Shown here: piece after piece, positions 4,486 through 58,354 of the stretch | Numbering within the stretch: position 1 is the first letter of the stretch | Layout of the letters: every line of letters starts with the position of its first letter | DNA from: an uncultured Clostridia bacterium | GTDB lineage: Bacteria; Bacillota; SHA-98; UBA4971 | Reading direction: 5' to 3' | DNA length: 59,757 nucleotides | Assembly (NCBI GenBank): GCA_900019985.1 | Contig: FIZM01000002.1 | Span: 1 to 59,757, forward strand | Made by a program: the position numbers and the translations under genes | The notes under the pieces: generated by a model | The model's database searches: none | Told to the model about the DNA's origin: nothing | What the model saw: the letters and a program-made list of their open reading frames with translations, nothing else

Positions 4486-4659
4486 AACCACATCCCACCT
4501 TACTGAATGTAGAGGCATGATCATACAATAGAGAAGTATAGATACAATAGAAGTATGGACATATTCATTGCATTTCTAAACCTATAGAACGCTGCTGTTC
4601 AAAACCTCCAGGCAACACTGGGAGCTGCCTATGGAAGCGCCTCAGACAAATATGGCATC

Positions 4660-4689
4660 ATTATACACTCATCTCGCATATTTATGCAA
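4660..4689 (-). promoter_or_regulatory. argC operon promoter with overlapping ArgR-like dyad
   Basis: On the minus strand TTGCAT (4684-4689) and a perfect TATAAT (4660-4665) are separated by 18 nt, a good sigma-A promoter. The -35 and spacer contain GCATA-AA-TATGC, a perfect dyad around a 2-nt centre that resembles ARG boxes (AT-rich, TGCAT/ATGCA half-sites), so arginine-dependent repression by an ArgR/AhrC protein is plausible. An isolated ATGAAT-like half-site lies downstream near 4564. The regulator gene is not in the window. Confidence 0.7.
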
Positions 4690-4755
4690 TACTCAAATGT
4701 AGGATTTTTGCGCCTTGCGGAAATACCACTCCTAAATACATTTATCCGGACAGTG

Positions 4756-4808
4756 AAAATGTCACCCCCTTCCCGCTGAATGCAGGCGGAATACGGAGGT
4801 GACATTTT
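4756..4808. terminator. Large inverted repeat, probable bidirectional terminator
   Basis: Perfect 11-bp arms AAAATGTCACC (4756-4766) and GGTGACATTTT (4798-4808) enclose 31 nt that contain a smaller CCGC/GCGG stem. A and T runs at the stem base on both sides give a terminator appearance in either direction. It lies after the beta-barrel gene and before the arg promoter, where insulation between units is expected. Confidence 0.5.
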
Positions 4809-4829
4809 AGCGAATCGGAAATAAGTGCA

Positions 4830-4878
4830 AACAGGCTGCGCGTTACCCCTATGTACAAACCCGGTTGCGCAGCCTGTT
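4830..4878 (-). terminator. 12-bp inverted repeat downstream of the beta-barrel gene
   Basis: Perfect arms AACAGGCTGCGC (4830-4841) and GCGCAGCCTGTT (4867-4878) flank a 25-nt loop. Read on the minus strand the second arm ends in TGTTTGC followed by TTATTT, a weak T-tract. It sits about 110 nt after the stop of the gene at 4987, so the simplest reading is that gene's terminator. A mobile-element end is an alternative, but I see no transposase remnant. Confidence 0.45.
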
Positions 4879-4986
4879 TCAATACATTTTATATCGTTGT
4901 CGTCTTTATTAAACTCATGCTTTCATAGACTAGACGCAACTTAAAAGTCGCGCCCGGCCTCAAAGCACAAGCTTACTAACGGATGC

Positions 4987-5520
4987 CTAGAAATCCATTC
5001 CTACGAGGACTCTAAATCCTGTAGTGCTTGGTGCATCCTGGGTCTTGAAGATGACCTCACCGGCGAGCCAGAACGGATCATAAACGTCTGCCATAATACC
5101 GCCGACCGCTTCCAGCCATGCCTTGGCACTACCTGCACCCAGCCTGACACCAAGGCCTGCGTCACCGTACACCATAAGCTGCGGGTGTACAGGCTGCTCT
5201 CCCCAAACACCTATCAGAAGATTAGGTGAGGTTCCACCGGCAGTATACAGCCTTACGCCTCCGTACGCGCCGACGAGAGCATCGCCGAACTCCTTAAGAT
5301 CCATGGAGGCCCAAATATCAGCCCAGCCTGCATTCTCAATGCCGAAGTAATCTATTCCCAAGTCTACCACGTCAGTAAGCGCCAACTCGCCTTTCAGAGT
5401 CAGGCCTCTGCCGTCCCCCTGGAAATAGTAGCCAACACCGATATGGTTTGCTGCAGAGGCTACTCCGGAAATCGTCATTGCACCTATGACCACCAGTGTG
5501 ATAAGAAGCTTCTTGCTCAT
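4987..5520 (-). CDS. Secreted small beta-barrel-like (outer-membrane-type) protein
   Basis: A 177-residue protein starting at ATG 5520 (the frame stays open further upstream, but this ATG has GGAGG 7 nt before it). It begins with a signal peptide: MSKK, a hydrophobic stretch and an ASA cleavage site near residue 25. The mature part is made of about ten alternating hydrophobic/polar stretches rich in Gly, Tyr, Trp and Leu, separated by short polar turns, and ends in VLVGMDF. A terminal Phe after an amphipathic strand is the known signal recognised by the BAM machinery. I infer an outer-membrane beta-barrel, which would imply a diderm cell. I recognise no specific family. It stands alone with its own promoter and following hairpins. 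A secreted beta-sandwich is the alternative. Confidence 0.7.
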   Translation of the reverse strand: MSKKLLITLVVIGAMTISGVASAANHIGVGYYFQGDGRGLTLKGELALTDVVDLGIDYFGIENAGWADIWASMDLKEFGDALVGAYGGVRLYTAGGTSPNLLIGVWGEQPVHPQLMVYGDAGLGVRLGAGSAKAWLEAVGGIMADVYDPFWLAGEVIFKTQDAPSTTGFRVLVGMDF

Positions 5521-5630
5521 GTTTATCCTCCTTTCTATTGAGACATTCGAAAGAATGGTTCGACAATATGCCGAAAACTCCTTCAAAAACACCTTCAAAA
5601 CATTGTTTTCCCTGATCGGGATAAAACTAT

Positions 5631-5659
5631 AGCATAAAGGAAGCACGCACTTTTTCCAA
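5631..5659 (-). promoter_or_regulatory. Candidate promoter of the beta-barrel gene
   Basis: TTGGAA (5654-5659) and TATGCT (5631-5636) are spaced 17 nt apart on the minus strand, leaving a leader of about 105 nt before the ATG at 5520. The match to consensus is moderate. The leader is A/T-rich. Confidence 0.45.
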
Positions 5660-5762
5660 ACAACCAGTAGATCCTGGAAGATCGTCATGTTATACTCAGA
5701 TAAACATGGGAACGAACCTACATGTACCGTGATTTTATACAGTCAGGAGGCGCGACACAGAA

Positions 5763-5951
5763 ATGTCAGCTGTTACCGTAGATTCAGGCCTCTGCATCGG
5801 TTGTGGTTTGTGTGCTGAAATATGCCCTGAAGCCTTTGAGATGGGTGACGACGGACTGGCCCATGTCATAGATGGCGCTGACTGCGACGAGTCAGACTGC
5901 TGCATTGAAGCGAGAGACTCATGTCCGACTGAAGCAATTAAGGTTGAATAA
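5763..5951 (+). CDS. Small [4Fe-4S] ferredoxin
   Basis: A 62-residue soluble electron carrier. C11, C14 and C17 (CIGCGLC) together with C54 (SCPTEAI) match the ligand pattern of single-cluster ferredoxins of the Thermotoga/Desulfovibrio type. C21 and one of C46/C47 are placed like the disulfide pair in those proteins. The ATG at 5763 follows AGGAGG at a slightly long 12-nt spacing. A TTATACT-like -10 lies near 5695. Its 3' end overlaps the 3' end of the convergent amrS gene by 14 bp. An electron donor role for the radical SAM protein next door is possible but is only inferred from proximity. Confidence 0.93.
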   Translation: MSAVTVDSGLCIGCGLCAEICPEAFEMGDDGLAHVIDGADCDESDCCIEARDSCPTEAIKVE

Positions 5952-8469: not shown

Positions 8470-8503
8470 AATTGTCTAAACTCTCCTAAAATTGCCCAAA
8501 CTC
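8470..8503. repeat. Tandem 20-bp duplication around the amidase stop codon
   Basis: AATTGTCTAAACTC (8470-8483) and AATTGCCCAAACTC (8490-8503) differ at two of 14 positions and lie 20 bp apart. The second copy contains the last codons and stop of the amidase gene and the first lies just outside it, so it looks like a small duplication of the gene end. Confidence 0.4.
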
Positions 8504-9814
8504 CACGATATCGTAGTTGGGAGGAAGGGGTTCATCGAGGATGATGTGACCTGCTATGGTGGCCGGGATCGCGCCTTCAATGAGAATCCGGACTCCTTTT
8601 ACTCCCGGAATATCTGTCAGGGTATTGACAATGGAGTAGACGGTCAGCTCCTCAGCCCTGCTCCCTCCCCAGTGGTTCTCTTTAAGTTCTTTGCTAAAAT
8701 CAGCGTAAACTACATCGTCAACTATTTTCACTGACCTGAGCAATGTGCCCCGCGGTATAGTAGGACACAGCACACTGCTTCGTGCAGGGCCTTTGATCAG
8801 TTCTTGAACGATTCGGGCAGCGCGCGATTCCAGGTCGCCCACATCTTCTAGGCCGGGGATTTTCCGGACCTCAGGCATGAGATCGTCATCGAAATTGGTA
8901 GGCCCTGCAAAATACAGGGTCACCTCGTTTTCTTCCAGGTTCAAAGCTGCTCTGATTCTCGAAGGCAACGAAGTCAGGCCTTCCATATCCGTGAACCGGC
9001 CTGACAGGTCAGAAACCGGCTTTGCTTCATCACTTTTCCGGGTTTTGTTCTTCTTGTAAGAGTCCACGAGGTAATTGACGGTTCCATGGAAGATGGCCTC
9101 AGCCACCTGTTGTCTGTAGTCAGCTTGAGCAAGCAATGATTCCTCCCTGGGATTCGACAAGAAACCCACTTCTACAATGACTGCAGGCATCGTTGATTTC
9201 CGCAGCACATAGTAATCATCACCGGTTTTTGCCTTGCGTAGGTTCGGACCGAGTCCGCTGACAAGTTCTTTCTGAATGGCAATGGCCAGTTCTTTCGCCT
9301 GATTTGACTTGCTGTGGTAAAAGGTTTGCGCACCGGACCAGACAGGCTCGGGAAAGCTGTTGGCATGAATACTGATGAAAAGATCAGCATTGTGTTCTGT
9401 GGCAAGGGCAACACGGCCTTCCAGGTCAAGCCTTATCCAGCCGCCGCCGGAACTATTGCCCGAGTCTATGAGCCCTTCATCTGAATTCCTAGTTAGAACC
9501 GTATAAACAGCAGCCCTGTTAAACAACTGCGCTAAGCGCAGCCCTATATCCAGAACCACATCCTTCTCCAGGACTCCTGCACGGCCTTTTGCGCCTGCAT
9601 CGATTCCTCCGTGGCCCGGATCGATGACAATAATCTTACCGCAGACTGCTTGAGAGAGAGGGGCATTAACTTGCACTGATACGTAGGTGAGAACAAGGAG
9701 AAATGCCATGGCTACGCCGATCGTTCCCAAAGCGATAAACCAAGCCCGATTTGTCCAGAAGATAACCACCGGCGGCTTCAATAGAAATTCACCCTTTGGA
9801 ACGCGCCGTGACAA
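8486..9814 (-). CDS. N-acetylmuramoyl-L-alanine amidase with GerMN domain
   Basis: A 442-residue cell-envelope hydrolase. A transmembrane anchor or uncleaved signal spans about residues 24-48. It is followed by an Amidase_3 catalytic domain (about 59-255) with the zinc-site motifs IDPGHGG (His68), a conserved Glu after VLEKD, SIHANSF and the catalytic EVGFLSN. A linker leads to a C-terminal GerMN domain (about 295-440), found in GerM and other sporulation or germination proteins. Together this suggests a peptidoglycan amidase of the CwlD/AmiC type acting outside the membrane, possibly in spore cortex or septal peptidoglycan processing. The start is a TTG at 9814 with GAGGG about 11 nt upstream, so it is only moderately certain. 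Confidence 0.9.
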   Translation of the reverse strand: MSRRVPKGEFLLKPPVVIFWTNRAWFIALGTIGVAMAFLLVLTYVSVQVNAPLSQAVCGKIIVIDPGHGGIDAGAKGRAGVLEKDVVLDIGLRLAQLFNRAAVYTVLTRNSDEGLIDSGNSSGGGWIRLDLEGRVALATEHNADLFISIHANSFPEPVWSGAQTFYHSKSNQAKELAIAIQKELVSGLGPNLRKAKTGDDYYVLRKSTMPAVIVEVGFLSNPREESLLAQADYRQQVAEAIFHGTVNYLVDSYKKNKTRKSDEAKPVSDLSGRFTDMEGLTSLPSRIRAALNLEENEVTLYFAGPTNFDDDLMPEVRKIPGLEDVGDLESRAARIVQELIKGPARSSVLCPTIPRGTLLRSVKIVDDVVYADFSKELKENHWGGSRAEELTVYSIVNTLTDIPGVKGVRILIEGAIPATIAGHIILDEPLPPNYDIVEFGQF

Positions 9815-57367: not shown

Positions 57368-58354
57368 TCACGGTACGGACAGTACGAAGTCAACCAAGTC
57401 GCTTCCGAGCCTGTCGAGAACCTCGTCCCAGAGCGGCATTACGGCTTCCTTGAACTCTTCCTGGTCGACTTCGATAATGTTGACGCCCTCTTCCCTCAAA
57501 GCATTGAGAGCATCAACTGTCAACTGGGCCCAGGACTTGCGGCCTGCTTCGATGAATGCGGGGAGACACTGGATCAAGATCTGCTTATCGCTGTTGGACA
57601 GATTGTCCCATGTCTTCTTGCTGGCGAGAAGTCCTGTGATGTCAATGGTGTGAACGTCCAGAGCATAGTTGGGAGCAACCTCATAGTGCCTCTGTGTGTA
57701 GTATGCTCCGGGGTCATTTTCAGCACCGTCGATAACTCCTGTCTGCAGTCCGCTGTAGACTTCACCGTATGCCATGGGGACTGCTTTTCCTCCCATCATG
57801 TTAACCAGGTCGATGTATACCTTGTTCTCCATGACCCTGATCTTCTGGTCTTTCAGGTCTGCCACACTGTAAACCGGCTTCTTGGTGTAGAAGCTTCTGC
57901 CACCTCCGCATATCCATGCCAAAGTGTAGAAGCCCGGATCATGCTCCTCAACATATGCATTCATTTTTGCTGCTAATCCTGAATCAAGGCACCTGACGAG
58001 GTGGTCTACGTCTTTAAACAGGTAGGGTAGGTTGAGTGTGTCGATCATTGGTGCGAAGCTTCCAAAGGGTCCGAGAGAGCTTGTGCAGAAGTCAATGGTG
58101 CCCATCTGAACGCCCTCAATCAGCTCTCGCTCATAACCAAGCACTGCGTTGGAATAGACTTCGAGCTTGATTTCGCCGTTACTTGCTTCCCATATCGCCT
58201 CAGACCAAGCCTTGAAGGCCTGATGGTATGGATAGTCTTCCGTGCTGTCGTCTCCTGCACGGAGCACCAATCTTGGAGCTGCGAATGCTGACAGTGATCC
58301 CATCAATAGAATAGCCACACAAAGAAGAGATACGACCAGTAGTCTCTTACTCAT
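57368..58354 (-). CDS. dctP: TRAP transporter substrate-binding protein
   Basis: A 328-residue DctP-family protein. Residues 1-25 are a signal peptide ending AFA, without a lipobox cysteine, so the mature protein would be released by signal peptidase I. The family motif GEVYSGLQTGVIDGAEND is present, with the substrate-ion Arg expected in DQKIRVMEN. ATG 58354 has AAGGAGG 10 nt upstream. First gene of the operon. A freely soluble TRAP binding protein is usual in Gram-negative cells, less so in monoderm Firmicutes, where lipoproteins dominate. Confidence 0.94.
   Translation of the reverse strand: MSKRLLVVSLLCVAILLMGSLSAFAAPRLVLRAGDDSTEDYPYHQAFKAWSEAIWEASNGEIKLEVYSNAVLGYERELIEGVQMGTIDFCTSSLGPFGSFAPMIDTLNLPYLFKDVDHLVRCLDSGLAAKMNAYVEEHDPGFYTLAWICGGGRSFYTKKPVYSVADLKDQKIRVMENKVYIDLVNMMGGKAVPMAYGEVYSGLQTGVIDGAENDPGAYYTQRHYEVAPNYALDVHTIDITGLLASKKTWDNLSNSDKQILIQCLPAFIEAGRKSWAQLTVDALNALREEGVNIIEVDQEEFKEAVMPLWDEVLDRLGSDLVDFVLSVP

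Follow-up and report, generated by a model that had tools for sequence, protein, structure and literature searches.

A probable small outer-membrane barrel protein in a lineage of Bacillota with LPS-type outer-membrane genes

Introduction

Does a small secreted protein encoded by a member of the Bacillota reside in an outer membrane, and does its host build one? The question was raised by a gene near the start of a 59,757-nucleotide stretch of DNA (here called the window; contig FIZM01000002.1, assembly GCA_900019985.1) from an uncultured Clostridia bacterium. In an initial annotation its product had been described as beta-barrel-like, with about ten amphipathic strands and a terminal Phe, and was taken, together with a DctP protein in the same window, to point to an outer membrane in a Firmicutes lineage. 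This study focused on the gene and its relatives, the predicted fold of the protein, and the envelope genes of its own genome and class.

The gene and its family

Translation of the minus strand at 4987-5520 from the ATG at 5520 gives 177 aa; features of the locus are collected in Table 1. A 233-aa version from an in-frame upstream ATG was rejected, because the alignment of the homologs begins at the internal ATG. The description as a small secreted protein was borne out by a signal peptide without a lipobox, in which the cleavage-site motif is AxA (ASA), S22 and A23 are invariant in the alignment of 13 homologs, and residues 3-16 form a helix in the AlphaFold model. In those members of genus 1 that were examined, a radical-SAM gene lies on one side and argC on the other, and genus 2 retains the same neighbourhood with extra genes inserted between; these neighbours (arg genes and MEMO/radical-SAM genes) are uninformative on an envelope function.

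Table 1. Features of the small-barrel locus, in window coordinates
Feature	Position	Strand	Basis or remark
CDS, predicted 177-aa small outer-membrane barrel	4990..5520, stop codon 4987-4989	-	translation, homologs, alignment
Shine-Dalgarno AAGGAGG	5527..5533	-	6 nt before ATG, direct sequence reading
Signal peptide, residues 1-23, type I, ends VASA, without lipobox Cys	5452..5520	-	sequence
Mature ten-stranded barrel domain (predicted), residues 24-177	4990..5451	-	AlphaFold, Foldseek
Last strand and C-terminal Phe, GFRVLVGMDF	4990..5019	-	candidate BAM recognition signal
Hairpin AAACAGGCTGCGC...GCGCAGCCTGTTT	4829..4879	-	about 110 nt past stop codon; 12/13 family genomes

A search of 61 related genomes recovered the protein from every one of the 13 genomes, in two genera, that belong to its GTDB family, and from no genome of the class's other two families. 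The other 12 members are 40-86% identical to the window protein. The terminal Phe reported earlier (F177) is not only present but invariant in 13/13 members, against a baseline of about 11% among mechanically called ORFs, and it is accompanied in the last strand by invariant R170 and G174; a C-terminal Phe is also seen in the lineage's BamA, OmpM-like and LptD proteins. Four charged residues (E45, E137, E155 and R170) are invariant and, from the strand phase of the model, are predicted to face inward, and the mature part has no invariant Ser or His among the 13 members. The protein rose above no cut-off in Pfam, NCBIfam or PDB sequence searches, a PHROGs search gave no family membership, and Pfam searches detected no SLH domain; the models PF13505 and PF01389 came closest, with a best E = 0.015-0.019 among the 13 members, short of the Pfam cut-off. 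Within the broad class of small outer-membrane proteins (OMPs), it represents a new member, one that lacks annotation.

Downstream of the gene, a hairpin recurs in the family (sites L003-L015) at about 45-315 nt past the stop codon, its arms nearly fixed (ACAGGCTGYG...CRCAGCCTGT) amid diverging surrounding sequence, and with three base pairs changed on both sides. The strict pattern occurs in 9 of the 17 class genomes, each time with a copy beside the small-barrel gene, and a reversed control pattern had no match in any of the 17; apart from a second site in one genome (G012), the hairpin is nearly always single-copy. Rfam gave no match across window 4600-5800. The hairpin is likely the terminator or mRNA end of the small-barrel gene.

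Predicted fold

Structure prediction, which had been set beforehand as a possible refutation, returned a transmembrane-type barrel. The full-length AlphaFold run gave ten strands at a mean pLDDT of 82.7, with four models at about 80-83, while the mature form reached a mean pLDDT of 88.9 and a pTM of 0.78, with one confident model out of five; the input alignment held five homologs. Every listed Foldseek match in the PDB was an outer-membrane or designed transmembrane barrel, among them Ail, OmpX, OmpA, KdgM, pOmpT, NanC, FapF and the designed TMB10 (TMt 0.63, rmsd 4.6). TM-scores to single PDB entries were moderate (0.4-0.7) and the rmsd often large, and the superpositions are too loose to assign the protein to any one family. 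The about ten amphipathic strands read from the sequence agree with the ten of the model, and the alternation of strand hydrophobicity exceeded that of shuffles for both the sequence (p = 0.013) and the family profile (p = 0.0002), with strand boundaries taken from the AlphaFold model.

A profile of the 13 proteins was searched against 399 genomes of the same phylum, and outside the family it matched only four, all weakly. All four encode BamA, a gene present in 88 of the 383 sampled genomes from outside the class; calculated by hand and with relatedness disregarded, the chance of such a coincidence is about 0.003. The strongest of these matches, in another Bacillota genome (L101), lay in the barrel at the N-terminus of an OmpA protein (PF13505/PF01389 together with PF00691); two of the four covered mostly the signal peptide and first strands.

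Outer-membrane genes of the genome and its class

The genome was also examined for bamA, lpx, lpt and SLH genes, by family searches and inspection of stretches of the genome, and all were found. Contig C8 carries TamB, BamA (Omp85 E = 1.9e-50, POTRA E = 9.7e-32), Skp/OmpH and LpxD inside 12 kb, and contig C7 carries LptA, LptC, an MsbA-like ABC exporter, LpxB, LpxI, LpxA, FabZ and an LpxC that is incomplete, ending at the contig edge, so that all four of lpxA, lpxB, lpxC and lpxD, for lipid A synthesis, are represented. Curated LptD models match the LptD of this lineage weakly or not at all: the cluster protein of a congener (G001) scored E = 3.4e-7 against the LptD model, far under its cut-off, and the Pfam model had no match in the genome itself, for which reason LptD was sought with the congener's protein and identified by homology on contig C32. 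In most class genomes the full-length LptD is accompanied by a further LptD-like protein of shorter length, about 540-660 aa (G000:C66:1169-2551 and similar places).

In the congener, one 36-kb contig carries the whole outer-membrane cluster contiguously, with LptB, two LptF/G permeases, a DUF3084 protein and SLH proteins in addition; of the LPS transport set, LptA, LptC and LptD are present in the genome under study, and LptB and LptF/G were seen in the congener only. One of its SLH proteins, of 841 aa, has weak porin/OMP matches and resembles an OmpM-like fusion. SLH proteins occur in the genome under study and in 17/17 class genomes, the porin matches being known from the congener's protein. 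Two further proteins are encoded within the cluster: one of 503 aa, without a Pfam match, separates Skp from LpxD, and one with an S55 peptidase of the SpoIVB type adjoins TamB (L002:2569-4080 and L002:14007-15917).

Across the class, BamA was found in 16 of 17 genomes (missing from G002), as were LpxC and LptD (both missing from G015). These absences are likely assembly gaps, because G002 keeps the small barrel, LpxC and LptD, and G015 (family f2; L057) retains BamA and LpxD; the congener of the latter, G013, has all. Alternatively, G015 may have lost its LPS locus, perhaps recently. A BamA tree of 33 rows recovered the class as a single group with 100/100 support, and BamA-family proteins as such occur in 103 of the 399 Bacillota genomes sampled, in more than 30 families. 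The nearest named relatives are MAGs labelled 'Bacillota/Firmicutes bacterium' (UBA6811, AS23ysBPME_252, AS02xzSISU_21 and Yes71-24), and the lineage may belong to Limnochordia or to a sister class. With regard to sporulation genes, the window carries an amidase and a GerM-domain protein at 8486-9814, and SpoIVA (G000:C253:704-1414) is present in 17/17 class genomes.

Discussion

Judged from its gene content, the organism is supported as a two-membraned (diderm), LPS-type member of the Bacillota, because its genome carries the machinery for building an outer membrane. The outer membrane proposed from the window is upheld by the BamA, Lpx, Lpt and SLH genes; the small barrel by itself is insufficient as proof of a diderm envelope. 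A PF03480 match (E = 4.5e-71) confirms the DctP protein at 57368-58354, and it does lack a lipobox, as had been stated, but the argument drawn from it for a periplasm is weak and not diagnostic. It might be supposed that the outer-membrane genes came from a Gram-negative contaminant of the genome bin, which comprises 306 contigs and carries these genes off the window contig. The stated contamination of the assembly is, however, 0.02%, and the class-wide occurrence of the genes (BamA and LptD each in 16/17 genomes, with the barrel in 13/13 of its family) and the recovery of the class at full support in the BamA tree make contamination a poor explanation, whose probability we consider next to negligible.

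The small barrel is probably a family-specific, BAM-inserted, closed OmpX/OmpA-N-like OMP of these diderm, LPS-type Bacillota. As modelled, it has the signal peptide, membrane-type barrel and C-terminal aromatic residue by which BAM-dependent OMPs are recognised. Its localisation, BAM dependence and function are inferred, and its route would run from Sec export and cutting by signal peptidase I after Ala23, through escort by Skp across the periplasm and recognition by BamA of the C-terminal strand (...LVGMDF), to insertion into the outer membrane as a ten-stranded barrel. Neither an enzyme nor an open porin appears as likely as a closed structural or surface protein, because charged residues are predicted inside the barrel and invariant Ser and His are lacking. 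PagL, PagP and OmpT represent catalytic outer-membrane barrel families, and the same lack in the mature part speaks against a catalysis like theirs.

A small specific porin, serving solute uptake through the outer membrane in the manner of KdgM and NanC, is suggested by the Foldseek results, in which the mature model matches KdgM best among PDB entries and attains a TMq of 0.67 with NanC. KdgM and NanC have twelve strands, however, against the ten predicted here, invariant charged residues are predicted to occupy the barrel interior, and no transport gene adjoins the small-barrel gene, all of which make a porin unlikely. Soluble barrels of about 150 aa, such as those of the lipocalin and avidin kinds, also exist, and a secreted protein of this type, periplasmic or extracellular in a diderm host, would be compatible with the signal peptide, the size and the looseness of several PDB superpositions; it would account poorly for a set of listed structural matches that are all transmembrane barrels, for the invariant terminal Phe and alternating strand hydrophobicity, or for a profile match that extends to an OmpA barrel, and is very unlikely.

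These results add one family and a small class (17 genomes in the collection) to the evidence on diderm Bacillota, which is used to argue for an outer membrane in the ancestor of the phylum. The gene content suggests that this diderm lineage possesses at least some of the sporulation genes, and because spoIVA is found throughout, the class is a candidate system for the coexistence of spore formation and an outer membrane. The small barrel could serve as a surface marker of its family. A more far-reaching combination, in which a spore-forming diderm class stands apart from Limnochordia, the barrel founds a new OMP sequence family, and the hairpin functions as a regulatory RNA or as the precursor of one, strikes us as quite improbable.

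Comparison with known systems

The envelope type is one already known, LPS-type as in Halanaerobiales, Negativicutes and Limnochordia. Antunes et al. 2016 (PMC5007114) described a conserved outer-membrane locus in Halanaerobiales and Negativicutes, which the congener's cluster resembles, and PMC11456536 states, with reference to Taib et al. 2020, that each of the 46 Limnochordia UBA genomes analysed there has the outer-membrane cluster. The diderm Firmicutes cluster and that of the present lineage share a locus of TamB, BamA, Skp, LpxD, Lpt, LpxC, FabZ, LpxA, LpxI, LpxB, MsbA and an OmpM-like protein. The small-barrel gene, in contrast, sits outside the cluster, and the available parts of PMC5007114 and PMC11456536 contain no mention of a small barrel of this kind.

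OmpM, the SLH-porin tether, is also an OMP of diderm Bacillota and is encoded in the outer-membrane clusters of related genomes, but the small barrel has no such SLH domain and reaches about one fifth of OmpM's length. KdgM and NanC are, like the modelled protein, small monomeric OMP barrels, and KdgM is the closest structural match of the mature form, although sequence identity to them is only 8-14%, the predicted strands are fewer, and uptake genes are not linked. The OmpX/Ail and OmpA N-terminal barrels (PF13505, PF01389) have eight strands, whereas the small barrel has ten predicted strands, falls below the Pfam cut-offs and carries no C-terminal peptidoglycan-binding domain; these barrels are likewise small, with a signal peptide and an aromatic end, and share with it a weak profile similarity.
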